Source of the DNA: Chaetoceros tenuissimus
Taxonomy: Eukaryota > Bacillariophyta > Thalassiosirophyceae > Chaetocerotales > Chaetocerotaceae
Direction of reading: 5' to 3'
Length of the DNA: 43,129 bases
Assembly: GCA_021927905.1 (NCBI GenBank)
Contig: BLLK01000049.1
Location: 1-43,129 of the forward strand
Both the position numbers and the translations under genes were made by a program. The notes beneath the pieces were generated by a model. The model was given only the letters and a program-made list of their open reading frames with translations. It did not search any database and was not told the origin of the DNA. Shown here one piece after another: positions 1-22,883 of this stretch (position 1 is its first letter; each line of letters begins with the position of its first letter).

Positions 1-1
1 C

Positions 2-1033
2 TATGAGGGAATGAGACATGTCCTTGAAGCTTCACCTCAATTGAATTATATGGATTATCCTAACCAAATCCTTGATGGATCAATTTTATTAATGTACAAG
101 ACTATCCCACGTACAGGAGATGCAAGTACAGAGAGAGGATTTAGGAATATGATAATTTCTATGACTGGTGTACCTCAAGATGTTACCAGTCAAGATGATA
201 GAGATTATTTAGAAGAAGAATGTGAAAATTTGCAATATCTCTTTACCAAAGTTGTTCAAATTATTGCTGGAGATGAACCACTTCCAGTTGATCCAAATGA
301 AGAGATTGGAGATCTTACTGAGGCCATAATGGATGAAAATAATGCTATTAGTCAAGATGGAGGGATCACAATTGAAGTGCGTCAAGCTAGGATTGCTATC
401 TTTCAGCAAGCATCAAGTGTCAAGTACACAGAAACGTGGTGTGCAAGTATTGTGTATGCAATTTTTGAAGTAAGAAAGATATTTGAAAAGATTCGTAGAG
501 AAGGTGGTAGACGTAATGCAGGTTTGCAATATGTACGAGAGAGAGATGTGACAGAGGACAGTCCGATGTTAGATATGAGTGAAGAGGTTGCAAATTCATT
601 GACACATTTGTTTTCATTCTTGAGTAACAAGAATAAGATGCTTTCTCTATCAAGAATGTTGAATATTCATTGCTCTGATTTGAATAGGACAAAGAAGAAG
701 ACAGCTATTGATGTGTTGAATCGAATCTTGAATTGTTATGCAGCAAAATATCATGACATCTTTGTAGAGGGAGATGTGGCTTTGTATCGCTTGCAAGAAG
801 AAGTTGTTGATGAAGCAGCAGATGAATTTATCAATGAAGGGTTTGGTGTAGATGGTGATCAATCTCGAGATCAATTGCCAGTTGAGTCACAAGAGTATTT
901 GGATCAGCATGATATGGAAAGAGATCGCCGTTCAGCAATGACTACTAGAAATACAACTAGAATCTGGACAGAACGCGAAGAAGTGCAAGAGGATAATATT
1001 TTGCAACAAGAGTATTTGAATAGAAGGGATTAA
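2..1033 (+). CDS. C-terminal part of giant element protein, copy 1 (5' partial)
   Basis: The reading frame is open from the window edge to TAA at 1031-1033. It encodes 343 residues matching the C-terminus of the copy 2 and copy 3 proteins. One difference is visible: Phe in the segment AIFEVRKIF where the other copies have Leu (around 465). The segment is rich in predicted helix and charged residues and ends in a polar, Glu/Arg-rich tail. I recognise no domain in it. The upstream exons, including any USP domain, lie outside the window, so whether this copy is intact is unknown. Confidence 0.75.
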   Translation, partial: YEGMRHVLEASPQLNYMDYPNQILDGSILLMYKTIPRTGDASTERGFRNMIISMTGVPQDVTSQDDRDYLEEECENLQYLFTKVVQIIAGDEPLPVDPNEEIGDLTEAIMDENNAISQDGGITIEVRQARIAIFQQASSVKYTETWCASIVYAIFEVRKIFEKIRREGGRRNAGLQYVRERDVTEDSPMLDMSEEVANSLTHLFSFLSNKNKMLSLSRMLNIHCSDLNRTKKKTAIDVLNRILNCYAAKYHDIFVEGDVALYRLQEEVVDEAADEFINEGFGVDGDQSRDQLPVESQEYLDQHDMERDRRSAMTTRNTTRIWTEREEVQEDNILQQEYLNRRD

Positions 1034-1682
1034 TACTACTTTGGTGAAAAGTTTATAATTTTTGAGTAAACATAATATAGTATGGAATAAGAGCATAGTC
1101 AAAATCATGGTTTCAAAAGCTACTTTTCATAGCAATAAATGTATATCATAAAGACAGTGAGGTGTGTCAACATAGTTTTTCAGTATGCTCAATGATATTC
1201 TTCAAAAAAATCCCCACTAAAAACAGTTTATGAAAACCTCAATTTTTACAAAAGACTTAGAGATTTTCAGAATAATGTGAAAAAATACAAGTCATGGGAA
1301 AAACTGAAAAATATTTGATGAATGCCAATTTCAATAGCAGAAATGAATTTGTCATGAAATTTAGAGTGGAATGGATAACCAACACTTATGGTATCACTTC
1401 TTGGAAAGAGGTGAAATTACAGATTATACCATTGTCATATGGTGCGAAATGAAAGTAGGGGTTCGATTCCCAACCATCCGCAGTACTGTAAGTACGTACA
1501 GGAGACATAAAATGATGGTTTGGAGTTAAACAAAGAGATGTCCTATACAACAAAAGATGAAATTGTATGGTATGACCTCATAGAGGATCCTTGAGCTGTA
1601 GCTTGACTGACTTTCATTGTCTGGTCAAGAATACTAGAGAAATTCATACAATTGTCCCCCTGATTCTATGTAGTGTACTAAA
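1034..1682 (+). other. Element 3' non-coding region, first half (copy 1)
   Basis: No ORF of note. It contains a tRNA-like segment (1372-1481) and, from about 1600, a partial unit of the 172-bp repeat that follows. The same sequence recurs at 12209-12857 and 21298-21946. Confidence 0.6.
1372..1481 (+). other. tRNA-like segment with a perfect B box (copy 1)
   Basis: GGTTCGATTCC at 1460-1470 fits the Pol III B-box consensus and a T loop (TTCGATT). In a tRNA fold the T stem has only 3 of 5 pairs. The acceptor pairs TGGAT (1372-1376) with ATCCG (1476-1480), 5 of 7 positions including one wobble. A perfect 5-bp hairpin (ACCAT 1428-1432, ATGGT 1439-1443) sits between. The D arm is poor and the span is too long, so this is at best a decayed tRNA or a SINE-like Pol III head. 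Equivalents lie at 12547-12656 and 21636-21745. Confidence 0.3.
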
Positions 1683-2176
1683 CTATGTACGTACAAGCCC
1701 AGTATGAGTGCCGTGTCCTACCAGTTGGAGTGTCATTGGGTATTTTGGACCTGTAGGGTACATGTAAGCTGTATCATGCCTAACATTCATTGTCTGGTCA
1801 AGAATACAAGAGAAAATCATACAAAGTTCCCCCGATTCCATATAATATGTTAAACTATGTACGTACAAGCCCAGTATGAGTGCAGTATCCTACCAGTTGG
1901 AGTGTCATTGGGTATTTTGGACCTATAGGGTGCATATGAGCTGTGTCATGCCTAATATTCATTGTCTGGTCAAGAATACAAGAGAAAATCATACAAAGGT
2001 CCCCCGATTCCATATAATATGTTAAACTATGTACGTACAAGCCCAGTATGAGTGCAGTATCCTACCAGTTGGAGTGTCATTGGGTATTTTGGACCTATAG
2101 GGTGCATATGAGCTATTTCATGCCTAACATTCATTGTCTGGTCAAGAATACAAGAGAAAATCATACAATAGTCCCC
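1683..2176 (+). repeat. 172-bp tandem repeats, element 3' region (copy 1)
   Basis: Three units start at 1683, 1855 and 2027 with the same opening words, CTATGTACGTACAAG, exactly 172 bp apart; the third is shortened. Each unit contains the palindrome GTACGTAC. Units differ by a few substitutions, so the array is older than the copying of the whole element. Confidence 0.85.
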
Positions 2177-2417
2177 CAAACAGTAGAAAATGATCATGTT
2201 TTCATATCATACTGTCAATAAGAGTAATTTAGCCTAAATCAGAAATAGCCAATGACTGTCTATGATGATATCTTTGCGGGCCTATAGCATTGGATGTGGA
2301 TGGGGCCTCTAAAAACTAAAGATGGGCCCCTATTCAGCAGAAAATTCTCTATCTAGGCCATGTTTCAGATTGTTCATAGCTCAAAAATGATTTTGCAAAT
2401 AGCCATGGATGAGAATA

Positions 2418-2500
2418 CTAACCCTAACCCTAACCCTAACCCTAACCCTAACCCTAACCCTAACCCTAACCCTAACCCTAACCCTAACCCTAACCCTAAC
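2418..2500 (+). repeat. Interstitial telomeric repeats (CCCTAA), 83 bp
   Basis: A perfect CTAACCCTAA... tract of about 13.8 units begins at the element 3' end (GAGAATA|CTAACCC) and ends ...CCCTAAC before unrelated sequence. The C-rich strand is on top, the orientation of a telomere to the left. It separates copy 1 from the left arm of copy 2. Confidence 0.97.
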
Positions 2501-2690
2501 ATGTCATGACATCAAATGACATGGGACTGGCTCAAAACTTAGCTTGATGGATTTCATGGGATTGACTTGTCATGACATCAAATGACATGGGACTGGCTCA
2601 AAACTGAGCGAAATAGAGTGTCTTCAATAGAAAAATTAATGACATGTCATGACATCAGTTGACATGGGACTGGCTCAAAACTGAGCGAAA
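2501..2690 (+). repeat. Degenerate tandem repeat with TGTCATGACA palindrome
   Basis: The words TGTCATGACATCA followed by ATGACATGGGACTGGC (second word slightly varied) recur at 2502, 2568 and 2645, spacing 66 and 77 bp. ATGTCATGACAT at 2501-2512 is a perfect 12-bp palindrome. The repeat abuts the telomeric tract. Confidence 0.7.
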
Positions 2691-2990
2691 TTAGAGTGTC
2701 TTTGTCCGAAAAATTCAACTGATGTCAAAGCAGCTAATATGGTAGTATAAATGGCCTATCAGAAGAATTTCTAGCTATTTAAATATAAATTTCAATTCAA
2801 CTGATTAATCCTATATAAATAAGTTTATATAGCTTCAGTTAATAGCCCATTAGCTGCTCAACTGATGCACAAATGGCCTGAACCTAGAGATCTGCAAAAA
2901 ATGTACAAATATTTTTCATTTTTTGTTCTTCAAAACAATTCATAAAAAAAGAAAGTGCAAATTGCAAAGACTTTGCTACAACAATTTAAA

Positions 2991-3416
2991 ATGAATTCTG
3001 AGAAAAAATATACAAGAGCTCAAGCATACATGGGAATGCACCTTACTAGGGAGGAAAAGAATGAAAGAAAGGAGCAGATGAAACTTTTGGGGGAGCTTAT
3101 TGAAATGAAACATGAATATGAGAGAGTTATTGCAATGAAAAGAAAATATGAGGAGGAATATGAACATTTTAAGTCATCTAAAAGAAGATTCAAACAGGAG
3201 GAGGATGATTTGAGTGATGTTACTGAGCAATCTGTAGAGGAAGCTGTTGTTGAAGCTTATCAGAAGAATCTAGTTACAAATATGGCAAAGGTTGCATCTA
3301 TTCAATTTCAGAATGGTAATGATGAAGTCAAAAGTCAGATTGCTGCAAAGGTTATTGATGAAAAGTTTGCAAAAGCTTTTACTGGTGCTTTATTTGAGAA
3401 ATTACTTGCAGAATAA
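2991..3416 (+). CDS. Small charged coiled-coil protein, function unknown
   Basis: An ORF of 141 residues from the first ATG (the frame is open from 2955, but only with a GTG). The first two thirds are Lys/Glu/Met-rich and helical, with a likely coiled coil around residues 30-80 (EEKNERKEQMKLLGELIE and onward) and a basic patch (SKRRFK). The C-terminal third is more hydrophobic (QNLVTN/KVIDEKFAKAFTGALFEKLL-like helices). I do not recognise a family. It lies 0.5 kb inside the telomeric tract, on the same strand as the giant gene. It could be a DNA- or RNA-binding helper of the element or an unrelated subtelomeric gene. TCAACTGA words lie upstream at 2715, 2797 and 2858. Confidence 0.5.
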   Translation: MNSEKKYTRAQAYMGMHLTREEKNERKEQMKLLGELIEMKHEYERVIAMKRKYEEEYEHFKSSKRRFKQEEDDLSDVTEQSVEEAVVEAYQKNLVTNMAKVASIQFQNGNDEVKSQIAAKVIDEKFAKAFTGALFEKLLAE

Positions 3417-3855
3417 CTATTTAAAATCATCTAAAACAATGCTGGAATCAATTAAAACTGTATATTTAATTTTCGGACAAAATTCTACTAATTTAGCTCG
3501 AATTGACGTCGATGAAGGTCATTGGTATCAAAAATGAGTTTTTTTTTACAAATAATTAAGAGGCTGAATCTTTACACTTAGAGATCAGTTAGAGTTCTAA
3601 GTTTTTTGTGAGAGATCAGTTGAATTATAAATTTTCGATACGAACCGTTAGATGGCGGTTATATTGCAGCTAAAACGCTCTATTTTTGAAATAAAGATTA
3701 TTAAATGTTTAGAGATGAAGAACATTTCTGCAAGACTGGAAATGAAATTTTCAAGTAAAAGAAAGTTTCTTCCAGTGAGTTTTGCTCATAAATTTTCCTA
3801 TTGCATTTTTGCATCACAATACAAGTACCAAATACTACAAAAAAAGAGACTTAAG

Positions 3856-4842
3856 ATGGTATATGATCCTGTTCTATCTGTAGATAGACCAAGTAAAAGA
3901 GTGAAGCAAGTAGCAAGAAAGAAGACTGGTAGAGCTCCATCTAAAAACCAGAATGCAACAAGACTTCTGGTTAGAAGAAAACATCCTAGACTCCCATTCT
4001 CATATATTAAGAGATCAAGTAAGCAAGAGCTACCAGCAAAGAAGCCAGTGGACCCAGTAGTTGGTGCTGATGTAACTGATATTCTTATTAATGTAAAGAA
4101 GAATCAGTTTGAAGAGCTGTTGGGAAAGCATAAAGAAGAAAATGAATATATTCAAAAGATCATGGATAATATGCTGAATCAGCTGGACTCAGACTATGTG
4201 TATGATATATTTGAAGATGAAGGTAGATATGTATACAAGGGCAAAAAAGTTCATGATGAGTTTGAGGATAGTGATTGGGATGATAGTGATGATGAAGATG
4301 CTGTTGTTACATATGCAAAATATGAGCCATTGGCATGGTTTACTCCTGGTAGTCTCAAACAATGGAACAAGAATTATTATTTTTCAAGAAAGAGAGATAC
4401 ATTGTTTGCATTATCTCATGCATTGCATAAGTATTGGATGCTTAGATGTGAAAGAATGGAAGAAAGGAGAGGAATGACTTATTGGCATATTGAATATGAT
4501 AATGGGCTGGAGAATTTGTTGAGTTTGTTTGAGAACACAACTTTGAATTATGAATCAATTTCACTTTTAAAGCATCATGACATGATTGCATTCAAACCTG
4601 AATATAAGGTATTTGCTTCACCTGGATTTAGATTTGATCTTTATGCATTGATGGAGAAGTTGTCTTATAAACATGAAATGATGAAACAGCTTAAGGAACT
4701 GGAAGTAGAAATTGAAAGACTGGAGGAAGCATTGAATCAGAAGCTATCAGTGAGGCCAAGACCAACATTTCAAGAATCAAAAAGAGATGAAGGTTGGATT
4801 GGGAATTGCTTAGGGTTGGATGACTCTGATGATAGTGATTAA
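3856..4842 (+). CDS. Unknown protein, basic N-terminus and acidic middle
   Basis: The frame is open from ATG 3652 (396 residues). I prefer the ATG at 3856 (328 residues, starting MVYDPVLSVDRPSKRVKQ). The upstream stretch looks unlike protein, and GTGAGT at 3777 with TTAAG just before 3856 could be a leader intron. The N-terminus is Lys/Arg-rich and nuclear-signal-like. An acidic run (DSDWDDSDDEDA) lies at about residue 137-148, then a Trp/Tyr-rich segment, a predicted coiled coil near the C-terminus (KQLKELEVEIERLEEAL) and a terminal DDSDDSD. No family recognised. Same strand as its neighbours; possibly an accessory gene of the element. Confidence 0.55.
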   Translation: MVYDPVLSVDRPSKRVKQVARKKTGRAPSKNQNATRLLVRRKHPRLPFSYIKRSSKQELPAKKPVDPVVGADVTDILINVKKNQFEELLGKHKEENEYIQKIMDNMLNQLDSDYVYDIFEDEGRYVYKGKKVHDEFEDSDWDDSDDEDAVVTYAKYEPLAWFTPGSLKQWNKNYYFSRKRDTLFALSHALHKYWMLRCERMEERRGMTYWHIEYDNGLENLLSLFENTTLNYESISLLKHHDMIAFKPEYKVFASPGFRFDLYALMEKLSYKHEMMKQLKELEVEIERLEEALNQKLSVRPRPTFQESKRDEGWIGNCLGLDDSDDSD

Positions 4843-5280
4843 AGTGATGAGTTTATTTGTGTGTGTTTCTAAAAATTAATCTAAGTGGTATTTGTTAATA
4901 CATTCATATCAGTTGTAGTCATTGGATACAAAAACAATTGCATATGTGAAATCTTATATGTTTTAGAGATAGGAATGTATATAAATATTGTGCGCCAACT
5001 TTTATTGTCAGTTGAGATTTGAATATTTCGTTATGCTTTCATCAGTTGAGCAAAATTTTCATGTGGGAATGGATAGATTAGCTCTTATTTCCATAAGTTA
5101 CGAGGTATTTTGTAGATGTTCTGTTTATTTCAATCAGATTTGGTCATGACTCATATGGGAGTCAACATGAAATATTTGGAAAAGAACATGTTTTGACCAG
5201 TAGATCTGCTCATAAAAAAAGAATTGCCATTTTTGCATCACTTGTGAAAATATAAATCATACTGTTTATCATTCATATCA
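4843..5280 (+). promoter_or_regulatory. Likely promoter and leader of the giant gene
   Basis: A gene-free 438-bp gap, AT-rich, between the 328-residue ORF and exon 1 of the giant gene. It contains two exact TCAGTTGA words (5008-5015, 5042-5049), part of a set concentrated in this left arm. No clear TATA box is claimed. Copy 3 lacks this stretch altogether. Confidence 0.35.
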
Positions 5281-8200
5281 ATGAAGAAGGATACTACTAC
5301 CTCCGCAGCACCAGCTGCATCTACCAACAATGTCTGGAAGCAAGTACCAGTACCAAAAGGGATTACCAAGTCAGCATTTGATAAGGATGACTTTCCAACT
5401 GTTATTGAAACATACAATGATGCTGGAAAGGTTATCTCTAACGACAAACCATTGTCATCATCTCAGCGTAAGGCAGGAACAGTTGCAAATCTCATGAAGT
5501 CATTCTATTCCATGTCAGTTGAGAAAACTGGTAAAAGAAAAGCAACTCCTAGTGACAAGTCTGACAAAAATACTATTGCCATAATCGAAGATATTATTGT
5601 AGCTAAGGTGGAAGATAGTCCGATCAAATCAGGTAAGATTGTTAGGATTTCTTTAAATGAATGATGATCTTTTTCTGAAAATAATATTCTCACTGATAAA
5701 TTATTGTCTTTTAGACATTGATACTGTTGTGCATACTCCTACTGGGGGTGATGAAGTAGCTTTGACAGGTGGAGTATCAAGTGAGTTAATTTATTTTATT
5801 TACATATGCCTCTTATCATTCATTTACTAATGATGTACTTTCCAAAAAAGGTTTGGCGAAAACATGGAGTGGTACAGGGAATCCTCCGGGACATTCCATG
5901 CATTCCGCAAATGATGGGGAACGGACTGAGAGAACACACCATGGTCAAGATAACAACTTGTCAAATGGAAACAACAATTCCAGTGATGAAAGTAGTGACG
6001 AGAGTGATGGTGATGATGAACCGCCAGCTCATAACTTTACTGAAAATCAACCATGTAATTTCAATGGAGGAACCAATAAGTGCTATGTGGTGGCAGTATT
6101 GCAATTATTGTTTGCATGTCCTTTGCTCATGAGAAGAATTTTAGCCTTGCGTAAGCGTATGCGAGATGTAGAACCAACCTCTCCTTGTCGTCTTACAGAT
6201 GAGTTACTTCGCCTTTGTTACCGAGGAGGTTCTACCTTTGGAAAGACTGATGAAAGGTTCTTATATCAAAACATAAGTGCAGTTGTGAATCATATTGTCA
6301 ATAAAGAGGAAATTGCACATAGTGGTTCATCTATGGCATCTACATCATTCAGATCAAAATGGAAAAGTAATGACCAGCAAGATGCTCGTGAGTTTCTATA
6401 AGTACTTCTTGAATATGTTCGCCAAGAATTGAGGTCAGCTGCTGTTGATGGTCAAGAAGATTTTGACTTACTGCAAATTGAGCAACATGTTATGTCTTAT
6501 TACACATGTCAAAAATGCTCAACTGATTGGCATAATAATCTCCGTCGTGAAGATATTGTTCATGTCCCAGTCAATAAAGAAAAATCAATACAACATGAAT
6601 ATGATGATCTTTACATTCCTATTGAGGTTGAGTTGACATGTCAAGTTTGTTGTAATGATGGTGTTCGAAAGGAAAATGTCAAAAAAAAAGATACGTTATA
6701 CAATGAATCGAGTACACTCATCCTTCATCAATTGAGATACAGTATGAATTATGAAACTGGAAAAGTTGAAAGAAACAATGCTTCTGTTCCAATTGAATTT
6801 GAACTAAATAGAAAAGACAAGAAATTAAAGTTGCGAGCAATCATCCGACATCATCCAAGTCGAATGAAAGGATTAGATTCGGGACATTATTGGGTGTTCC
6901 GCCGTGCTTATGGTATGAATGATAATATTTGGTATGTTGTCAATAATGAGAATGAGACAAGAATGATTGATATGAATGGTGATCAAGAGACATTTGATGA
7001 TCTACTCTTGTCAGAACATTCCTATGTGCTCATCTATGAAGAGGAAAGTAAAGATTCTGAGTTGTCGCAACATGAGAGAGCATACATTGAAAAACTTTCT
7101 CTGAACGATAAGTATTTTCCAAAAGAAAAGATTCAACCAACAAATCCATATCTTCTGAAACGTGAAAAGGAGAGAGAAGCTATGAAACATCGATACTTTG
7201 AAGCTAAGGATACTTCTGATAGGTTTCTTCAACGAATAATTGATCATCAAAAAAAGGATCTTATTCGTGTCAAGGGAAAACAATTTCTAGATAAAAAGAT
7301 TATTCAATCACAACAAAAGTGGAAGTCTGATGGTGAAATGAGAAATAAACTTGATCCAGATAGAACAAGATTTACAGAAGAAAAGTTCAAGGAAATAGGA
7401 AAGAATGAAGTTGGTAGAGAAATTCACAAAACTAAGCAACAAATGAGAAACAAGGAATTAGAATTAAGATCATTGGATCGAGGGATTACCAAAATGGTAA
7501 AGGATAGAGAAGAAAATCCTATTGCAGCAACAGAGAGAGCTCGAGCTGTCCTTGACGGAATAAAGCATCCAACGCGTCATATAGTTCCAAAAGCCAAACA
7601 GAAGAAAGATCTTTCTCCACTTGATTTAGCAAAGATGCGACAAAAGATACAAGATCCAAAAATTATGGATGCATCAATATTCGCAAGACACATACCAACA
7701 GGCCGTATGAGAGATAGAAATTATACTCATAGTCCTGGAGAGGATCTTCGTCGAAGATACAAGAATCAATACATGTCCATCCACCAAACCAAAAAGCAGC
7801 AACAGAAAGAAGCTAATCGGGAAGCACAAATAAAGAGACAAGGCCAGCTTACAAGGATTAGACGCATTTCAGAACATAAAAGAGAAGCTCCAGCAAGAGG
7901 AAGGCAAGTGAATATTTTTGCTAAGTCTGCACCAGCAAAAGCAGATCCAAAACCAAATTCTGAAAATGACACTACTACTGGGATTGGTGTTGCAACAGGT
8001 AATGATCCTCCACCGAGTGAAAATGGTTACTCTTCTCCGCAGAATGATGATATTATAGATAGAGGTCTTGATAGTCCAGCCACAATTCAAAGAGCTACAT
8101 CACAAGATATTTTCAACTTTGCACATCCGCATACTCCAAATGAATCAATATCTGATCTATCCAGAAAGAAAGATGATAAGAGTAAGAAGAAGAAAAGCAA

Positions 8201-11200
8201 AGATAAGGTTCCAAAAAAGGGGAAAAGCACTAACCCTAAGAAGGGTTCTAAGTCCAAGCAGCAATCTTTAATTCCTTTCCCTAAGAAGAAAGAAAAAACC
8301 CAAAAGGCAAATGAAGAACCAAGAGTTGAATTGAAAAGAACCCATCATGTAGATCAAAGACAGGATAGAGGTAATTCAGATGTTTCCTTGTTTTATGACT
8401 TGGGATTGTTTAATGATCCAGAGAAAGAGGAGATAGCAAAGAAGAAGGATGTAGAAGCAACCTCCGATGACATGACTGAAGCTGTGAGACAAGTGTCTGT
8501 GAAAAAACCAATTCTGAAATTGAACAAGAAATTGGTTGCTGAATCAAAAGAATCTAATGAAAAGAATGATACAGATGACAATATTATTGATTTGATTTCT
8601 AGTTCTTCTGAAGAAGAGGATAATGTAGAAGAAGATAAGACTGCTGTGGAGAAGAAGACTGCTGTTGAGAACCCGACCAATAATGAGAACCAGACTGATA
8701 ATGAGAATCAGACCGATAATGAGAAGAAGAATCCAGAACTTATTGATTTGTCTATTTTATCAAGTAGTGAAGATGAATCAGATAGGGTAAGCTAAAAAGA
8801 GCAGTTTCTATTATGTTCATCTTATTAAGTTGGAACAAACTAATTATTATTTCTTCCGGTCAGGGTTCTGATGTAATTATCGGTTACTGTACAAGTGTTC
8901 CCAATCAAGTAGTCGAAACTTCTCTCTTTGATAGACTTTTTACCAAGAATGAGCAGCAACTGCATATTATTCCAGAAGATGGTAGTGAGGTCAAAAGTCT
9001 TCTTACTGATCATGCACCAAAAGACCAAGATTCTGACTCTGATTATTCCATGTCTAGTAATGAAGATTCAGATGAGTCAGTTCAGAAAAATAATGAACAC
9101 CGAAGTGGTAACACACAAAGCAATGTTCCCGAAGCATTTGATACTAGCATGAGAGATGCAGATAGTATTGGTGATGGTTCTAATAATGATGCCAGTATCA
9201 ATGATCCCGATGAAGAAGTCTTGTGTGTAGGGCGACATAGACTAAAAATGCAATTTGATATCCATGATCAGGTAGATGTTGATGGTGTCAAAATCAACTT
9301 AGAGTTTACATCCAAATCATATGAAGATGCTAGAGAGAATTATTTCAATGATCCTAGTGTCGACACAGATGTAGAGGCTGAAAAATTGCAGTATTTGATT
9401 GCAAATCGAATGTTCTTCAATCTATTCACAATGAATTTCTTAAGTGTTTGTGGATCTGCCAGTGAGGTACAGCCATTGCAATCTTATACAACCATGGAAG
9501 ACTTGAAAGATAAGTACAGTGTCAAACGAGGGAATCGGCCAGTGAATAAGCAAGTCCCTAGTTATGTTGTGGGAGAAGAGTTGGTTGTCTGTCAAGGAAC
9601 AGTGGGTATATCAACTCATAATACATCAGTGGATACCCCAACAGGGTTATCATTAGAGGATCTGGAAGAGCATGCAGATACATTTGTTCCTAAACGATTT
9701 GTAAAATTCTTGAAGGTATATGGAAAACATCCTCATGCAGAGTTGTATAATAAGTGTATGCAGCAGAGACGAATCCTTGGTCCAAATTGTTTGAAGAAAA
9801 GTAACCTTACCTTTCGTGATGTCATGGTTGCACTTCTTGCAGCAAGACCAAGGTTTGTTTCTTTGACTATGCTTTTTGGTACAAGATCATATATCTTTCA
9901 AAAATGTGGAGCATATGATGGACTCATGGACTGGTTTGATGAAGTACCAGAAATTGACATGAAGAAGCGTCTTGTACGTATGGACTTGGCTTACACCATA
10001 CCAAATAAGCCAAATTCAATTTATCAGTGTTCCTCTACCATTGACGGCATTGATTACACTGGGATTCAGACGTATGAGGTTTTTCATAATCCTGTAAATG
10101 GTATTGGAAGATGCAATAAAATTTTCTACAATGAAAAAACACCACAAAGACAAAGGACTGGAAATGTGACATTGGAATTCCCTAATTTCTACAAGAGGGG
10201 ATCGGAAAGGGATATATCAAAGTTTAAGGTGTATCTCACAAGAGCTCATTTGGTAAAACAATATTCTCATTTCAGTGGTCAATACAATTTGAGAGAAAAA
10301 ATAAAAGATCTTACAGTACGTCAAGCTCAGGTTATGATATCAACCCTTGAAAAGTGCTTTCTTGAACAAATGGAGTACCTGCGTGAACATGGTGACGACA
10401 TACGTATGGAAGCTACCATTGTTTCTGTATATCCACATGCCGATGATGCAGATGTAAGGAATATTCAACTCAAGGATCGGCATAAATTTAGAACCATTAC
10501 AGATTGGGAAGAAGCGTGGCTTGAAAATTTAGAATGGGCTGTGTCTTCCTTTAATCAACAATTATTCAATGTTGCGATAGAATATGTTGGTTCGCCAGAT
10601 GATTATGTTGTTGGATTTTACCATGCATTACAACTAATGAGGATTGAATTGAAAAAAAGAAGCATCACAAAGTTATCAGACTTGGAACCAAAGAATACAA
10701 TTCTTTATTACTTGGCATATCTCATGTCTGTATTGAGAGGATATGCTGGAGTTGCAGGAACGAGGCATGGACAAGCCTATAGAGAATTTATTATTGATCC
10801 GCCCTATGGAACCTATTACGACCCTAGTGGGATCACATACCTATTACATCAGGAAGCTATGGATCTTGCCAGTGAGCCAGGTATTCTCATTGACCAAATA
10901 TTTCATGTCCCAACTGAACTAGGTGAAACATTATTGATGCATAAAATTGCCTATGAGTTAATCTTGTCATACAATGAGGAAACACGTGTAGGATACGAAG
11001 AACTAGTAGCCACCTACAGTGATAGAACAAGAAGTGAGCAAGAACGGTCAAGGGCACATCAAATGATGACTGTACGTTTGAAGGAAGTGTTAGAAACCCG
11101 ACAATACCTTTTGTTGCGAGCAATGAATACTAGTGTTTATGTTCCAGATCAAAGGCGACATGAACTTACCAAGTACTATGAGGGAATGAGACATGTCCTT

Positions 11201-12208: not shown

Positions 12209-12857
12209 TACTACTTTGGTGAAAAGTTTATAATTTTTGAGTAAACATAATATAGTATGGAATAAGAGCATAGTCAAAATCATGGTTTCAAAAGCTACTT
12301 TTCATAGCAATAAATGTATATCATAAAGACAGTGAGGTGTGTCAACATAGTTTTTCAGTATGCTCAATGATATTCTTCAAAAAAATCCCCACTAAAAACA
12401 GTTTATGAAAACCTCAATTTTTACAAAAGACTTAGAGATTTTCAGAATAATGTGAAAAAATACAAGTCATGGGAAAAACTGAAAAATATTTGATGAATGC
12501 CAATTTCAATAGCAGAAATGAATTTGTCATGAAATTTAGAGTGGAATGGATAACCAACACTTATGGTATCACTTCTTGGAAAGAGGTGAAATTACAGATT
12601 ATACCATTGTCATATGGTGCGAAATGAAAGTAGGGGTTCGATTCCCAACCATCCGCAGTACTGTAAGTACGTACAGGAGACATAAAATGATGGTTTGGAG
12701 TTAAACAAAGAGATGTCCTATACAACAAAAGATGAAATTGTATGGTATGACCTCATAGAGGATCCTTGAGCTGTAGCTTGACTGACTTTCATTGTCTGGT
12801 CAAGAATACTAGAGAAATTCATACAATTGTCCCCCTGATTCTATGTAGTGTACTAAA
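12209..12857 (+). other. Element 3' non-coding region, first half (copy 2)
   Basis: Same content as 1034-1682. The tRNA-like segment with the perfect B box lies at 12547-12656. No ORF of note. Confidence 0.6.
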
Positions 12858-13351
12858 CTATGTACGTACAAGCCCAGTATGAGTGCCGTGTCCTACCAGT
12901 TGGAGTGTCATTGGGTATTTTGGACCTGTAGGGTACATGTAAGCTGTATCATGCCTAACATTCATTGTCAGGTCAAGAATACAAGAGAAAATCATACAAA
13001 GTTCCCCCGATTCCATATAATATGTTAAACTATGTACGTACAAGCCCAGTATGAGTGCCGTATCCTACCAGTTGAAGTGTCATTGGGTATTTTGGACCTA
13101 TAGGGTGCATATGAGCTGTGTCATGCCTAATATTCATTGTCTGGTCAAGAATACAAGAGAAAATCATACAAAGGTCCCCCGATTCCATATAATATGTTAA
13201 ACTATGTACGTACAAGCCCAGTATGAGTGCAGTATCCTACCAGTTGGAGTGTCATTGGGTATTTTGGACCTATAGGGTGCATATGAGCTATTTCATGCCT
13301 AACATTCATTGTCTGGTCAAGAATACAAGAGAAAATCATACAATAGTCCCC
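12858..13351 (+). repeat. 172-bp tandem repeats, element 3' region (copy 2)
   Basis: Units start at 12858, 13030 and 13202, 172 bp apart. Private substitutions relative to copies 1 and 3 include CAGGTC for CTGGTC near 12970 and GTTGAAGTG for GTTGGAGTG near 13074. Confidence 0.85.
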
Positions 13352-13592
13352 CAAACAGTAGAAAATGATCATGTTTTCATATCATACTGTCAATAAGAGT
13401 AATTTAGCCTAAATCAGAAATAGCCAATGACTGTCTATGATGATATCTTTGCGGGCCTATAGCATTGGATGTGGATGGGGCCTCTAAAAACTAAAGATGG
13501 GCCCCTATTCAGCAGAAAATTCTCTATCTAGGCCATGTTTCAGATTGTTCATAGCTCAAAAATGATTTTGCAAATAGCCATGGATGAGAATA

Positions 13593-13621
13593 CTAACCCT
13601 AACCCTAACCCTAACCCTAAC
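13593..13621 (+). repeat. Interstitial telomeric repeats (CCCTAA), 29 bp
   Basis: CTAACCCTAA... for 29 bp (4.8 units), starting at the same element position and ending in the same register (CCCTAAC) as the other two tracts. It is followed by unrelated TTGCAGATTT-type repeats. Confidence 0.97.
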
Positions 13622-14155
13622 TTGCAGATTTGGATTTGCAAAATTATACTTGCAGATTTTCATTTACAAAATTGTACTTGCAGATTTGGATTTGCAGATT
13701 TTCATTTACAAAATTGTACTTGCAGATTTGGATTTGCAAAATTGTACTTGCACCTTTATACTTCAAAAATTTGATTTGTAAAATTGTACTTGCAGCTTTT
13801 TATTCACAAAATTGTACTTGCAGATTTTTACTTCAAAATTTATACTTACAAAATTATACTTGCTTTTTTGTACTTCAAAAGTTGTATTTGCTCAATTGTG
13901 CTTACAGATTTTCATTTACAAAATTGTACTTGCAGATTTGTACTTCAAAAATTGTACTTGTAGATTTAAACTTTAAAAATTTGATTTGTGAAATTGTACA
14001 TGCAGATTTTTATTTCAAAAATTTGTACCTGCAAAATCATATTCATAGCATAATACTTGTGAATTTGTACCTGGTAAATCTTACTTATAGCAATATACCT
14101 GTAAAATTGGTAACAGAAGCCCTAACCATGGTGATTAAATTTGTTTTCAAATGAT
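13622..14155 (+). repeat. Degenerate short repeats around AAAATTGTACTTGCAGATTT
   Basis: Roughly twenty diverged copies of a short T-rich word (ACTTGCAGATTT / ACAAAATTGTACTTGC). Open frames here simply reflect the repeat and its lack of stops; they give low-complexity LYLQIWICKI-type translations and are not called as genes. Confidence 0.75.
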
Positions 14156-14313
14156 TAGAGCTTGGTAACAAAAAATGTTATGTCAGAAATTGCGCCCTAA
14201 TTCAATGACAACATGTTTTCCCTTTACATAAAATGGATTTTTTTTAGACAGCACTTTTGTGTTCTCAGTTAGAACAGGGGAAATAATCAGGATATTCACA
14301 AATAACACCCTGA

Positions 14314-14451
14314 GAAATTTATAAATACAAAATGAATTGGAAAATTTGATTGTAGTCCTCTTCTGGTTTGTGCTAGTCCAAAGAAATTTACAAATACAAA
14401 ATAAATTGGAAAAAATTGAATATAGTCCTCTTCTGGTTTGTGCTAGTATTA
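14314..14451 (+). repeat. 69-bp direct duplication
   Basis: Two adjacent units start at GAAATTTATAAATAC (14314) and GAAATTTACAAATAC (14383). Both contain TAGTCCTCTTCTGGTTTGTG. The surrounding 14156-14553 holds no supported gene. Confidence 0.7.
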
Positions 14452-14553
14452 ATCAATTCTAACAAAAATTTTACTTGTAATAGGGGATTTGTAGAAATTA
14501 CCTAAAAGAATTTTCTTGTAAAGATGTGCTTTTAGAAATAAAAATTATTGTAT

Positions 14554-14623
14554 TTGCAAAATTGTACTTGCAAAATTGTACTTGCAAAATTGTACTTGCA
14601 AAATTGTACTTGCAAAATTGTAC
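14554..14623 (+). repeat. 14-bp minisatellite TTGCAAAATTGTAC x5
   Basis: Five perfect units, a cleaner version of the words in 13622-14155. An 18-bp perfect palindrome (TACAATTTTAAAATTGTA, 14634-14651) follows. Confidence 0.95.
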
Positions 14624-14939
14624 TTGTGAGAAGTACAATTTTAAAATTGTAGGTGCAAACCCCATACTGATTGGTATATGTTCAAATTACACTTAGGTGG
14701 AAGATAGTCCGATCAAATCAGGTAAGATTGTTAGGATTTCTTTAGATGAATGATGATCTTTTTCTGAAAATAATATTCTCACTGATAAATTATTGTCTTT
14801 TAGACATTGATACTGTTGTGCATACTCCTACTGGGGGTGATGAAGTAGCTTTGACAGGTGGAGTATCAAGTGAGTTAATTTATTTTATTTACATATGCCT
14901 CTTATCATTCATTTACTAATGATGTACTTTCCAAAAAAG

Positions 14940-17900
14940 GTTTGGCGAAAACATGGAGTGGTACAGGGAATCCTCCGGGACATTCCATGCATTCCGCAAA
15001 TGATGGGGAACGGACTGAGAGAACACACCATGGTCAAGATAACAACTTGTCAAATGGAAACAACAATTCCAGTGAAGAAAGTAGTGACGAGAGTGATGGT
15101 GATGATGAACCGCCAGCTCATAACTTTACTGAAAATCAACCATGTAATTTCAATGGAGGAACCAATAAGTGCTATGTGGTGGCGGTATTGCAATTATTGT
15201 TTGCATGTCCTTTGCTCATGAGAAGAATTTTAGCCTTGCGTAAGCGTATGCGAGATGTAGAACCAACCTCTCCTTGTCGTCTTACAGATGAGTTACTTCG
15301 CCTTTGTTACCGAGGAGGTTCTACCTTTGGAAAGACTGATGAAAGGTTCTTATATCAAAACATAAGTGCAGTTGTGAATCATATTGTCAATAAAGAGGAA
15401 ATTGCACATAGTGGTTCATCTATGGCATCTACATCATTCAGATCAAAATGGAAAAGTAATGACCAGCAAGATGCTCGTGAGTTTCTACAAGTACTTCTTG
15501 AATATGTTCGCCAAGAATTGAGGTCAGCTGCTGTTGATGGTCAAGAAGATTTTGACTTACTGCAAATTGAGCAACATGTTATGTCTTATTACACATGTCA
15601 AAAATGCTCAACTGATTGGCATAATAATCTCCGTCGTGAAGATATTGTTCATGTCCCAGTCAATAAAGAAAAATCAATACAACATGAATATGATGATCTT
15701 TACATTCCTATTGAGGTTGAGTTGACATGTCAAGTTTGTTGTAATGATGGTGTTCGAAAGGAAAATGTCAAAAAAAAAGATACGTTATACAATGAATCGA
15801 GTACACTCATCCTTCATCAATTGAGATACAGTATGAATTATGAAACTGGAAAAGTTGAAAGAAACAATGCTTCTGTTCCAATTGAATTTGAACTAAATAG
15901 AAAAGACAAGAAATTAAAGTTGCGAGCAATCATTCGACATCATCCAAGTCGAGGTAAAGGATTAGATTCGGGACATTATTGGGTGTTCCGCCGTGCTTAT
16001 GGTATGAATGATAATATTTGGTATGTTGTCAATAATGAGAATGAGACAAGAATGATTGATATGAATGGTGATCAAGAGACATTTGATGATCTACTCTTGT
16101 CAGAACATTCCTATGTGCTCATCTATGAAGAGGAAAGTAAAGATTCTGAGTTGTCGCAACATGAGAGAGCATACATTGAAAAACTTTCTCTGAACGATAA
16201 GTATTTTCCAAAAGAAAAGATTCAACCAACAAATCCATATCTTCTGAAACGTGAAAAGGAGAGAGAAGCTATGAAACATCGATACTTTGAAGCTAAGGAT
16301 ACTTCTGATAGGTTTCTTCAACGAATAATTGATCATCAAAAAAAGGATCTTATTCGTGTCAAGGGAAAACAATTTCTAGATAAAAAGATTATTCAATCAC
16401 AACAAAAGTGGAAGTCTGATGGTGAAATGAGAAATAAACTTGATCCAGATAGAACAAGATTTACAGAAGAAAAGTTCAAGGAAATAGGAAAGAATGAAGT
16501 TGGTAGAGAAATTCACAAAACTAAGCAACAAATGAGAAACAAGGAATTAGAATTAAGATCATTGGATCGAGGGATTACCAAAATGGTAAAGGATAGAGAA
16601 GAAAATCCTATTGCAGCAACAGAGAGAGCTCGAGCTGTCCTTGACGGAATAAAGCATCCAACGCGTCATATAGTTCCAAAAGCCAAACAGAAGAAAGATC
16701 TTTCTCCACTTGATTTAGCAAAGATGCGACAAAAGATACAAGATCCAAAAATTATGGATGCATCAATATTCGCAAGACACATACCAACAGGCCGTATGAG
16801 AGATAGAAATTATACTCATAGTCCTGGAGAGGATCTTCGTCGAAGATACAAGAATCAATACATGTCCATCCACCAAACCAAAAAGCAGCAACAGAAAGAA
16901 GCTAATCGGGAAGCACAAATAAAGAGACAAGGCCAGCTTACAAGGATTAGACGCATTTCAGAACATAAAAGAGAAGCTCCAGCAAGAGGAAGGCAAGTGA
17001 ATATTTTTGCTAAGTCTGCACCAGCAAAAGCAGATCCAAAACCAAATTCTGAAAATGACACTACTACTGGGATTGGTGTTGCAACAGGTAATGATCCTCC
17101 ACCGAGTGAAAATGGTTACTCTTCTCCGCAGAATGATGATATTATAGATAGAGGTCTTGATAGTCCAGCCACAATTCAAAGAGCTACATCACAAGATATT
17201 TTCAACTTTGCACATCCGCATACTCCAAATGAATCAATATCTGATCTATCCAGAAAGAAAGATGATAAGAGTAAGAAGAAGAAAAGCAAAGATAAGGTTC
17301 CAAAAAAGGGGAAAAGCACTAACCCTAAGAAGGGTTCTAAGTCCAAGCAGCAATCTTTAATTCCTTTCCCTAAGAAGAAAGAAAAAACCCAAAAGGCAAA
17401 TGAAGAACCAAGAGTTGAATTGAAAAGAACCCATCATGTAGATCAAAGACAGGATAGAGGTAATTCAGATGTTTCCTTGTTTTATGACTTGGGATTGTTT
17501 AATGATCCAGAGAAAGAGGAGATAGCAAAGAAGAAGGATGTAGAAGCAACCTCCGATGACATGACTGAAGCTGTGAGACAAGTGTCTGTGAAAAAACCAA
17601 TTCTGAAATTGAACAAGAAATTGGTTGCTGAATCAAAAGAATCTAATGAAAAGAATGATACAGATGACAATATTATTGATTTGATTTCTAGTTCTTCTGA
17701 AGAAGAGGATAATGTAGAAGAAGATAAGACTGCTGTGGAGAAGAAGACTGCTGTTGAGAACCCGACCAATAATGAGAACCAGACTGATAATGAGAATCAG
17801 ACCGATAATGAGAAGAAGAATCCAGAACTTATTGATTTGTCTATTTTATCAAGTAGTGAAGATGAATCAGATAGGGTAAGCTAAAAAGAGCAGTTTCTAT

Positions 17901-20900
17901 TATGTTCATCTTATTAAGTTGGAACAAACTAATTATTATTTCTTCCGGTCAGGGTTCTGATGTAATTATCGGTTACTGTACAAGTGTTCCCAATCAAGTA
18001 GTCGAAACTTCTCTCTTTGATAGACTTTTTACCAAGAATGAGCAGCAACTGCATATTATTCCAGAAGATGGTAGTGAGGTCAAAAGTCTTCTTACTGATC
18101 ATGCACCAAAAGACCAAGATTCTGACTCTGATTATTCCATGTCTAGTAATGAAGATTCAGATGAGTCAGTTCAGAAAAATAATGAACACCGAAGTGGTAA
18201 CACACAAAGCAATGTTCCCGAAGCATTTGATACTAGCATGAGAGATGCAGATAGTATTGGTGATGGTTCTAATAATGATGCCAGTATCAATGATCCCGAT
18301 GAAGAAGTCTTGTGTGTAGGGCGACATAGACTAAAAATGCAATTTGATATCCATGATCAGGTAGATGTTGATGGTGTCAAAATCAACTTAGAGTTTACAT
18401 CCAAATCATATGAAGATGCTAGAGAGAATTATTTCAATGATCCTAGTGTCGACACAGATGTAGAGGCTGAAAAATTGCAGTATTTGATTGCAAATCGAAT
18501 GTTCTTCAATCTATTCACAATGAATTTCTTAAGTGTTTGTGGATCTGCCAGTGAGGTACAGCCATTGCAATCTTATACAACCATGGAAGACTTGAAAGAT
18601 AAGTACAGTGTCAAACGAGGGAATCGGCCAGTGAATAAGCAAGTCCCTAGTTATGTTGTGGGAGAAGAGTTGGTTGTCTGTCAAGGAACAGTGGGTATAT
18701 CAACTCATAATACATCAGTGGATACCCCAACAGGGTTATCATTAGAGGATCTGGAAGAGCATGCAGATACATTTGTTCCTAAACGATTTGTAAAATTCTT
18801 GAAGGTATATGGAAAACATCCTCATGCAGAGTTGTATAATAAGTGTATGCAGCAGAGACGAATCCTTGGTCCAAATTGTTTGAAGAAAAGTAACCTTACC
18901 TTTCGTGATGTCATGGTTGCACTTCTTGCAGCAAGACCAAGGTTTGTTTCTTTGACTATGCTTTTTGGTACAAGATCATATATCTTTCAAAAATGTGGAG
19001 CATATGATGGACTCATGGACTGGTTTGATGAAGTACCAGAAATTGACATGAAGAAGCGTCTTGTACGTATGGACTTGGCTTACACCATACCAAATAAGCC
19101 AAATTCAATTTATCAGTGTTCCTCTACCATTGACGGCATTGATTACACTGGGATTCAGACGTATGAGGTTTTTCATAATCCTGTAAATGGTATTGGAAGA
19201 TGCAATAAAATTTTCTACAATGAAAAAACACCACAAAGACAAAGGACTGGAAATGTGACATTGGAATTCCCTAATTTCTACAAGAGGGGATCGGAAAGGG
19301 ATATATCAAAGTTTAAGGTGTATCTCACAAGAGCTCATTTGGTAAAACAATATTCTCATTTCAGTGGTCAATACAATTTGAGAGAAAAAATAAAAGATCT
19401 TACAGTACGTCAAGCTCAGGTTATGATATCAACCCTTGAAAAGTGCTTTCTTGAACAAATGGAGTACCTGCGTGAACATGGTGACGACATACGTATGGAA
19501 GCTACCATTGTTTCTGTATATCCACATGCCGATGATGCAGATGTAAGGAATATTCAACTCAAGGATCGGCATAAATTTAGAACCATTACAGATTGGGAAG
19601 AAGCGTGGCTTGAAAATTTAGAATGGGCTGTGTCTTCCTTTAATCAACAATTATTCAATGTTGCGATAGAATATGTTGGTTCGCCAGATGATTATGTTGT
19701 TGGATTTTACCATGCATTACAACTAATGAGGATTGAATTGAAAAAAAGAAGCATCACAAAGTTATCAGACTTGGAACCAAAGAATACAATTCTTTATTAC
19801 TTGGCATATCTCATGTCTGTATTGAGAGGATATGCTGGAGTTGCAGGAACGAGGCATGGACAAGCCTATAGAGAATTTATTATTGATCCGCCCTATGGAA
19901 CCTATTACGACCCTAGTGGGATCACATACCTATTACATCAGGAAGCTATGGATCTTGCCAGTGAGCCAGGTATTCTCATTGACCAAATATTTCATGTCCC
20001 AACTGAACTAGGTGAAACATTATTGATGCATAAAATTGCCTATGAGTTAATCTTGTCATACAATGAGGAAACACGTGTAGGATACGAAGAACTAGTAGCC
20101 ACCTACAGTGATAGAACAAGAAGTGAGCAAGAACGGTCAAGGGCACATCAAATGATGACTGTACGTTTGAAGGAAGTGTTAGAAACCCGACAATACCTTT
20201 TGTTGCGAGCAATGAATACTAGTGTTTATGTTCCAGATCAAAGGCGACATGAACTTACCAAGTACTATGAGGGAATGAGACATGTCCTTGAAGCTTCACC
20301 TCAATTGAATTATATGGATTATCCTAACCAAATCCTTGATGGATCAATTTTATTAATGTACAAGACTATCCCACGTACAGGAGATGCAAGTACAGAGAGA
20401 GGATTTAGGAATATGATAATTTCTATGACTGGTGTACCTCAAGATGTTACCAGTCAAGATGATAGAGATTATTTAGAAGAAGAATGTGAAAATTTGCAAT
20501 ATCTCTTTACCAAAGTTGTTCAAATTATTGCTGGAGATGAACCACTTCCAGTTGATCCAAATGAAGAGATTGGAGATCTTACTGAGGCCATAATGGATGA
20601 AAATAATGCTATTAGTCAAGATGGAGGGATCACAATTGAAGTGCGTCAAGCTAGGATTGCTATCTTTCAGCAAGCATCAAGTGTCAAGTACACAGAAACG
20701 TGGTGTGCAAGTATTGTGTATGCAATTTTGGAAGTAAGAAAGATATTTGAAAAGATTCGTAGAGAAGGTGGTAGACGTAATGCAGGTTTGCAATATGTAC
20801 GAGAGAGAGATGTGACAGAGGACAGTCCGATGTTAGATATGAGTGAAGAGGTTGCAAATTCATTGACACATTTGTTTTCATTCTTGAGTAACAAGAATAA

Positions 20901-21297
20901 GATGCTTTCTCTATCAAGAATGTTGAATATTCATTGCTCTGATTTGAATAGGACAAAGAAGAAGACAGCTATTGATGTGTTGAATCGAATCTTGAATTGT
21001 TATGCAGCAAAATATCATGACATCTTTGTAGAGGGAGATGTGGCTTTGTATCGCTTGCAAGAAGAAGTTGTTGATGAAGCAGCAGATGAATTTATCAATG
21101 AAGGGTTTGGTGTAGATGGTGATCAATCTCGAGATCAATTGCCAGTTGAGTCACAAGAGTATTTGGATCAGCATGATATGGAAAGAGATCGCCGTTCAGC
21201 AATGACTACTAGAAATACAACTAGAATCTGGACAGAACGCGAAGAAGTGCAAGAGGATAATATTTTGCAACAAGAGTATTTGAATAGAAGGGATTAA
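14940..21297 (+). CDS. Giant USP-domain element gene, copy 3 (open, 5'-truncated)
   Basis: Exon 3 equivalent 14940-17875 and exon 4 17953-21297, joined by a GTAAGC...TTCCGGTCAG intron. Short remnants of exons 1 and 2 lie at 14697-14721 and 14804-14869. The exon 1 frame meets a TAG at the truncation point (14694-14696), so any product needs an internal start; the exon 3 frame opens with TTG at 14942, not ATG. Counting from there, USP features are GTNKCYVVAVLQ (catalytic Cys77), QQDAREFL (175-182), Cys pairs CQKC (219-222) and CQVC (263-266), GLDSGHYWVF (His345), WYVVNN, and YVLIYEE (391-397). This is the full C19 deubiquitinase signature, so isopeptidase activity on ubiquitin is likely. A Lys-rich linker follows, then SIM-like motifs near 911 and 963. 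The exon 4 region is unrecognised and its protein is identical to that of copy 2. Confidence 0.7.
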
Positions 21298-21946
21298 TAC
21301 TACTTTGGTGAAAAGTTTATAATTTTTGAGTAAACATAATATAGTATGGAATAAGAGCATAGTCAAAATCATGGTTTCAAAAGCTACTTTTCATAGCAAT
21401 AAATGTATATCATAAAGACAGTGAGGTGTGTCAACATAGTTTTTCAGTATGCTCAATGATATTCTTCAAAAAAATCCCCACTAAAAACAGTTTATGAAAA
21501 CCTCAATTTTTACAAAAGACTTAGAGATTTTCAGAATAATGTGAAAAAATACAAGTCATGGGAAAAACTGAAAAATATTTGATGAATGCCAATTTCAATA
21601 GCAGAAATGAATTTGTCATGAAATTTAGAGTGGAATGGATAACCAACACTTATGGTATCACTTCTTGGAAAGAGGTGAAATTACAGATTATACCATTGTC
21701 ATATGGTGCGAAATGAAAGTAGGGGTTCGATTCCCAACCATCCGCAGTACTGTAAGTACGTACAGGAGACATAAAATGATGGTTTGGAGTTAAACAAAGA
21801 GATGTCCTATACAACAAAAGATGAAATTGTATGGTATGACCTCATAGAGGATCCTTGAGCTGTAGCTTGACTGACTTTCATTGTCTGGTCAAGAATACTA
21901 GAGAAATTCATACAATTGTCCCCCTGATTCTATGTAGTGTACTAAA
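21298..21946 (+). other. Element 3' non-coding region, first half (copy 3)
   Basis: Same content as 1034-1682, with the tRNA-like segment at 21636-21745. No ORF of note. Confidence 0.6.
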
Positions 21947-22440
21947 CTATGTACGTACAAGCCCAGTATGAGTGCCGTGTCCTACCAGTTGGAGTGTCAT
22001 TGGGTATTTTGGACCTGTAGGGTACATGTAAGCTGTATCATGCCTAACATTCATTGTCTGGTCAAGAATACAAGAGAAAATCATACAAAGTTCCCCCGAT
22101 TCCATATAATATGTTAAACTATGTACGTACAAGCCCAGTATGAGTGCCGTATCCTACCAGTTGGAGTGTCATTGGGTATTTTGGACCTATAGGGTGCATA
22201 TGAGCTGTGTCATGCCTAATATTCATTGTCTGGTCAAGAATACAAGAGAAAATCATACAAAGGTCCCCCGATTCCATATAATATGTTAAACTATGTACGT
22301 ACAAGCCCAGTATGAGTGCAGTATCCTACCAGTTGGAGTGTCATTGGGTATTTTGGACCTATAGGGTGCATATGAGCTATGTCATGCCTAACATTCATTG
22401 TCTGGTCAAGAATACAAGAGAAAATCATACAATAGTCCCC
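21947..22440 (+). repeat. 172-bp tandem repeats, element 3' region (copy 3)
   Basis: Units start at 21947, 22119 and 22291. One private change is GAGCTATGTCATG near 22376, where copies 1 and 2 have GAGCTATTTCATG. Confidence 0.85.
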
Positions 22441-22681
22441 CAAACAGTAGAAAATGATCATGTTTTCATATCATACTGTCAATAAGAGTAATTTAGCCTA
22501 AATAAGAAATAGCCAATGACTGTCTATGATGATATCTTTGCGGGCCTATAGCATTGGATGTGGATGGGGCCTCTAAAAACTAAAGATGGGCCCCTATTCA
22601 GCAGAAAATTCTCTATCTAGGCCATGTTTCAGATTGTTCATAGCTCAAAAATGATTTTGCAAATAGCCATGGATGAGAATA

Positions 22682-22710
22682 CTAACCCTAACCCTAACCC
22701 TAACCCTAAC
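22682..22710 (+). repeat. Interstitial telomeric repeats (CCCTAA), 29 bp
   Basis: Same length, start and register as the tract at 13593-13621. It is followed by GGTCTTAAC and a minisatellite. It marks the innermost former telomere in the window. Confidence 0.97.
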
Positions 22711-22727: not shown

Positions 22728-22853
22728 TTAATTTTCTGTTATTAATTTTCTGTTGTTAATTTTCTGTTGTTAATTTTCTGTTGTTAATTTTCTGTTGTTA
22801 ATTTTCTGTTGTTAATTTTCTGCTGTTATCTTTCTGCTGTTATAATTTCTGTA
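22728..22853 (+). repeat. 14-bp minisatellite TTAATTTTCTGTTG
   Basis: Nine units of 14 bp. The first has CTGTTA, the middle ones are perfect, and the last three decay to CTGCTG and CTGTA. It lies between the innermost telomeric tract and the 239-bp satellite. Confidence 0.9.
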
Positions 22854-22883
22854 CTTTTTTGGTTCATGTCCAAAATTCTATTA

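Follow-up and report, generated by a model that had tools for sequence, protein, structure and literature searches.

The start of contig BLLK01000049.1 of the diatom Chaetoceros tenuissimus carries an array of a telomere-resident element, one of whose genes is predicted to join a ubiquitin-specific protease (USP) domain to a large C-terminal region of no known family. The window, which is the whole stretch of 43,129 nucleotides analysed, comprises bases 1-43129 of this 390,835-bp contig (C36 below), in an assembly of 41,027,912 bp and 68 contigs. A search of this genome with the 3' untranslated region (UTR) of the element recovered ten copies, all of them at contig ends with the 3' end directed inward, and in all ten the 3' end falls at one and the same base before a CCCTAA tract. 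The reading placed first here, tentatively, is that of a selfish and probably non-autonomous telomere element, added to chromosome ends by a reverse transcriptase (RT) acting in trans.

Copies, junctions and truncations at contig ends

Sequence searches covered the organism's own assembly, IMG/VR and prokaryote genomes, and the genome-wide counts of element copies, drawn from the own-assembly searches, are lower bounds. The ten copies are distributed over five contig ends, with three at the start of C36 (A, B, and C), two at the start of C39, two each on C55 and C15, and one at the end of C34. A query made of the last 90 element bases and 9 tract bases returned the same ten copies, all identical over its length. 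The chance that five places all lie within 23 kb of a contig end is about 2.6e-6, with independence crudely assumed. An earlier note on this DNA had proposed a telomere-resident family with a single 3' junction to CCCTAA, as opposed to copies lying mostly inside chromosomes without telomeric junctions, and the genome-wide distribution bears the proposal out.

The 5' boundary can be read in five of the ten copies (C39_2, C55_2, C15_2, B, and C), the contig or the readable sequence stopping short of it in A, C39_1, C55_1, C15_1, and C34. Three truncated copies are joined straight to CCCTAA, at unit position 2801 in C39_2, 4760 in C55_2, and 6322 in C15_2; the boundary of B also meets CCCTAA directly, and that of C meets a minisatellite. 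In both pairs of neighbours that can be judged, the copy nearer the telomere (B, C55_1) exceeds its inner neighbour (C, C55_2) in length and thus was not copied from it. On the chromosome side, the bases just past the innermost CCCTAA tract differ at all five ends. Farther inward, a 239-bp satellite is common to C36 and C39, and C15 and C55 have a common flank (92.6%) that meets CCCTAA at different places, while the flank on C34 matched none of the other ends.

Relations among the copies were drawn from the last 1,667 bp common to all ten, a comparison that offers few sites and carries no statistical test. The eight copies outside C39 are 0-4 bases apart, and the nearest relative of each sits at a different contig end (B and C34, 0 differences; C55_1 and C15_2, 0; A and C55_2, 1; C and C15_1, 1). 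The two C39 copies stand apart as a type of their own, with 2 differences between them and 16-22 from all the others. Four pairs of types lie side by side in the arrays, and no such pair is seen in a second array; together with the relatives at other ends, this suggests that copies were gained one at a time. Local tandem duplication is not favoured as the source of the C36, C55, and C15 arrays, but may account for that of C39.

The earlier note had described the array in the window as three head-to-tail copies of a 9-11 kb unit. Their common direction and 3' end stand; the units are unequal, A being a fragment, B reaching 11.1 kb, and C being truncated:

1..2417, + strand: copy A, 3' part only (end of the last exon and 3' UTR), cut by the contig start
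2418..2500, + strand: CCCTAA tract between A and B, 13.8 repeats
2501..13592, + strand: copy B, the longest copy at 11.1 kb and the sole copy with genes a and b
2501..2691, + strand: three 44-nt repeats at the 5' end of copy B
12767..13352, + strand: 172-bp tandem repeat, 3.4 copies, in the 3' UTR of B (also at 1592-2177 in A and 21856-22441 in C)
13593..13621, + strand: CCCTAA tract at the 3' end of B, 4.8 repeats
13622..14691, + strand: subtelomere-like minisatellite (28/14-bp units) between this tract and copy C, 1,070 bp
14692..22681, + strand: copy C, 5'-truncated, in which gene a, gene b, and the greater part of exon 1 of gene c are missing
22682..22710, + strand: CCCTAA tract joining the array to subtelomeric DNA, 4.8 repeats
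22728..27435, + strand: chromosome-side flank, a 14-bp minisatellite followed by 19 copies of the 239-bp satellite

The alignment of B with C extends over 8,019 bp at 99.84% identity (5603-13621 and 14692-22710), and A (1-2446) matches the last 2.4 kb of both at 99.84%. The bases preceding the CCCTAA tract are identical in A, B, and C, and the 3' base is the same in each. The left edge of C is the base that matches 5603 in B, leftward of which the sequence continues into the 28-bp/14-bp minisatellite. The leftmost 3.1 kb of B has no second copy in the genome, so B is called the longest rather than a complete copy.

The minisatellite at 13622-14691 has only a weak second match in the genome, near the telomeric end of C27, and by period and motif we would group it with the 14-bp minisatellites of other ends. 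Minisatellites with a period of 14 bp or a multiple of it, their motifs differing, lie at or near the telomere tracts of C36, C55, C15, C13, and C42, and in the window occupy 22728-22852 and 13622-14691. The 239-bp satellite forms its 19 copies at 22884-27435 and is also found at the C39 end; other ends carry satellites of 193 bp (C27) and 330 bp (C13). A B-box-like motif, GGTTCGATTCC, lies in the 3' UTR at about 1466 in copy A, in a part that aligns with the corresponding UTRs of B and C. It was set aside as a tRNA-like element, with no gene called there by ARAGORN and no match in Rfam.

Nine chromosome ends were recognised by these searches, five of which bear the element; the other four (C13, C28, C27, and C42) have plain telomere repeats without it. 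Matches to RVT_2, the copia-type RT family, lie near two of the telomere-marked ends (C15 and C28), and at the C28 end a copia-type polyprotein frame (L042:90-3746) starts straight at the telomere repeats, as if cut by telomere addition. Tracts of four to five telomere repeats without the element also occur far from contig ends (L039:7101-7124, L044:7032-7061, and L036:5036-5059). The G+C content of the window is 36.9%. The genome of strain NIES-3715 has been published with a G+C content of 38.9% in 85 scaffolds, and the part of that paper available to us reports telomeric repeats for three scaffolds and mentions no telomeric element (PMC8613185).

The predicted USP fusion gene and its C-terminal region

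The coding content of the element is listed from the two longer copies in the window:

2991..3416, + strand: gene a, 141-aa open reading frame (ORF) with no Pfam match over the cut-off, in B only
3715..4842, + strand: gene b, 375-aa ORF with no Pfam match over the cut-off, at one place in the genome
5281..12208, + strand: gene c of copy B, predicted exons 5281-5632, 5715-5780, 5851-8786, and 8864-12208
15161..16126, + strand: USP (UCH, PF00443) domain of copy C, with Cys box, His box, and two CxxC pairs
17953..21297, + strand: C-terminal region of gene c in copy C (last exon), under purifying selection, with no Pfam or PHROG match

Gene c, modelled from GT-AG sites and reading frame, is predicted to be one spliced gene of 4 exons and 2,232 codons, encoding the USP domain and a C-terminal part of about 1,100 residues, much as the earlier note had supposed in describing a USP protease fused to a large region of no known family. 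Its three GT-AG introns (82, 70, and 77 bp) are all in frame. A single in-frame stop interrupts the USP part in copy B; in copy C that part is open and most of exon 1 is gone. The USP domain matches PF00443 with an E-value of 2.2e-18 and has two CxxC pairs as well as the Cys box and the His box, features of USP deubiquitinases (C19); by domain match it is a predicted deubiquitinase. No relative of it was found by sequence in the PDB at 1e-4. Searches with the last exon gave nothing in Pfam or PHROGs and nothing in the PDB below an E-value of 0.6. Relatives were also sought in IMG/VR and in prokaryote genomes, where there were none. For gene b, a TrmO_C match (E 0.0055) falls below the Pfam cut-off and is not trusted.

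Purifying selection acts on the C-terminal part. Comparison of the C39 type with the other copies gives 15.5 synonymous and 12.5-15.5 non-synonymous differences in the C-terminal ORF, for a synonymous proportion (pS) of 0.0219 and a non-synonymous proportion (pN) of 0.0046-0.0057. The ORF as delimited takes in about 26 codons of intron 3, where no differences occur. For the 28 differences between C36 and C39_1, the binomial probability of 15 or more being synonymous is 1.3e-4.

One diverged homologue of this region exists in the genome (C23:44159-47521, minus strand), with 34% identity and a full open frame of 1,121 residues. By eye, it seems to have a phase-0 GT-AG intron at about the position of intron 3. 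It has no USP match, and the stretch read around it contains no CCCTAA tract of three or more repeats. For the linker preceding the C-terminal part, the comparison of the element with C23 scored 79, while 200 shuffles reached up to 87, so that similarity there is not demonstrable. The relative adjoins gypsy elements, and a single AACCCTA lies near the junction of its 3' flank with gypsy sequence. It may be either a host gene or an old element. A T6SS_VasJ match to it (E 0.0034) is below the Pfam cut-off and not trusted, and a rolling-circle Rep-like fold of the C-terminal region, hinted at by eye in an RxDLAY strand and an RxE strand, was not supported.

Possible routes to the chromosome end

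The constant 3' end, the inward orientation, the 5' truncations on telomere repeats, and the apparent one-by-one gain are all as in telomeric retroelements, and for this reason addition by an RT in trans is placed first. An unspliced element RNA, ending in CCCUAA from the adjoining tract, would anneal to the TTAGGG overhang of a chromosome end, and an RT made elsewhere, either telomerase or another host or element RT, would extend the overhang into the element. The chromosome would thereby acquire a copy whose 3' end points inward. Incomplete copies would lack their 5' part and receive a cap made by telomerase, onto which the next copy would be added. The USP-fusion protein may have a helper role at chromosome ends. 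A telomerase gene is present in the genome (C48:1286800-1288140), with matches to the RBD and RT domains in frames of 1,162 aa (RBD E 1.2e-31). Borrowing of an RT by a member that lacks one is known or proposed for MoTeR2 of the fungus Magnaporthe oryzae, according to the excerpts of the literature available, and for HeT-A of Drosophila.

A more specific and doubtful form of this route is that the protein, with its USP and C-terminal parts, works at chromosome ends to make TERT take the element RNA as an alternative template, the CUAACCC end of this RNA resembling a telomerase template. If true, the element would be a telomere parasite without a polymerase of its own.

Several results weigh against an RT-mediated route. 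The earlier note had recognised no RT, helicase, or transposase in the array, and Pfam likewise finds no RT in the element. None of the 73 RVT_1 matches in the genome lies inside any copy, nor does any fall within the stretches examined at the nine telomere-marked ends; no Penelope-like RT was found with this general model, which is not specific to Penelope-like elements. The C-terminal region itself was set aside as an RT, having no family match and no DD pair conserved between its two homologues. No other sequence sharing the 3' end of the element, and hence no RT-bearing partner, appeared among the best candidates in the genome. RNA signals are equally wanting: positions 1-23000 of the window gave no hammerhead or other Rfam match (E up to 1), CTGANGA does not occur near the 3' end of the element, and the 3' tail does not fold better than shuffled sequence (z 0.00). 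The five copies that extend across intron 3 do not differ in it, so spliced mRNA was not the template. Penelope-like elements retain introns, which softens this objection. Two further points concern the copies themselves. The C39 pair are mutually nearest, which fits local copying, and at sites 7368 and 7690 all four combinations are present, so copies recombine; both sites belong to the 172-bp repeats, which readily undergo conversion.

Nearly as likely is a spread at the DNA level, resembling that of the yeast Y' element, in which a shortened end would invade the CCCTAA tract of another array and copy to the end by break-induced replication, eroded ends being healed by telomerase to give the 5' truncations, and the protein being kept because it favours the spread or serves the host. 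The missing RT, the retained introns (with an apparent phase-0 intron at about the same place in the 34% relative), the recombinant site patterns, and the like pair at C39 all sit comfortably with it, as do the presence of telomerase and the common flank of C15 and C55 with its different CCCTAA meeting points. Break-induced replication of telomere arrays is moreover described for MoTeRs in the accessible text. The adjacent type pairs speak against DNA-level copying, none of the four recurring between arrays (few arrays and few sites), as do the two pairs with longer distal copies, both of which require an outside donor, and the absence of a Pfam helicase match, a helicase being encoded by Y'.

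The C-terminal region might instead be an unrecognised replication or transposition enzyme, making the element autonomous and a new class that targets telomere repeats. Its roughly 1,100 residues under purifying selection without a trusted family match, and a second full-length ORF at 34% identity, speak for it. This is nevertheless unlikely, as no catalytic motif is recognised, single-sequence structure models are unusable (pLDDT 33 and 35), and nothing positive points to an enzyme.

A host subtelomeric gene family, immobile and passively amplified along with chromosome ends, is improbable. The single C23 relative without tract or USP match, the host-type nature of the USP domain, and the satellite and flank common to the C36/C39 and C15/C55 ends would suit such a family, but the bases beyond the innermost tract differ at every end, truncated copies are carried too, and all 3' junctions fall at one base. 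An assembly artefact, which a hybrid Nanopore/Illumina assembly (PMC8613185) and readable sequence stopping inside an element copy at all five ends might invite, is scarcely credible given five contigs with differing tract lengths and truncation points.

Comparison with known telomere elements

Much of this organisation has counterparts in fungi. The available parts of the MoTeR literature describe head-to-tail copies within telomeres, spaced by tracts that range from half a repeat to more than 20, with 5'-truncated copies bearing telomere repeats at the break and one member in which the RT region has been replaced. The diatom element resembles MoTeRs in its head-to-tail telomeric copies, its 3' end on telomere repeats (10 of 10 copies), and its truncations. 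It differs in its relations, since MoTeR1 encodes an RT and MoTeR2 shares the ends of MoTeR1, while no such partner was found here, and the same excerpts mention no USP fusion. FoTeR of Fusarium oxysporum, as far as its accessible description goes, is alike in a 3' end followed by several TAACCC repeats, in truncated copies, in variable number tandem repeats, and in purifying selection, but has a non-long-terminal-repeat RT, which was not found in the diatom element.

Terminons, which are endonuclease-deficient Penelope-like elements, are likewise long and multi-ORF, with 5' truncation by telomeric repeats, head-to-tail arrays, and a 3' end joined to reverse-complement telomere repeats; in the portions of the literature available they have an RT and a 3' hammerhead ribozyme, neither of which was found here. 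Yeast Y' elements are tandem subtelomeric units with telomeric repeats between them, a layout matched by the diatom arrays, though Y' has a helicase gene and is read in the direction of the telomere, whereas the present genes read inward and no helicase was matched in Pfam. HeT-A is an RT-less telomere element of Drosophila with its 3' end inward and a Gag protein. The first two traits are shared with the diatom element, and Gag had no Pfam match. For an additional peptidase the nearest parallel is CryptonS, a tyrosine recombinase transposon of oomycetes and a diatom, some members of which also encode a C48 peptidase according to the text available. C48 peptidases act on ubiquitin-like proteins; the domain here is of USP type, and no tyrosine recombinase was matched in Pfam.

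Telomere-targeting elements of this layout found in the open-licence literature carry an RT or share their ends with an element that does. The accessible parts of that literature, including PMC9266582, yielded no description of telomere elements with a ubiquitin protease, or of telomere elements in diatoms. That the sole long conserved product is a deubiquitinase fusion, in a telomerase-positive alga, would indicate either that the element is a parasite acting in trans or that copies reach chromosome ends by a new mechanism, and offers a testable link between ubiquitin removal and the recombination or extension of chromosome ends. The earlier note had gone further and suggested a new class of chromosome-end element. 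On the present comparison the layout is already known from MoTeR, FoTeR, Terminons, and in part Y', and the cargo and the missing copying enzyme are the features that appear unmatched; a variant of a known layout thus seems to fit better than a new class, unless the C-terminal region should prove to be a new replication protein.

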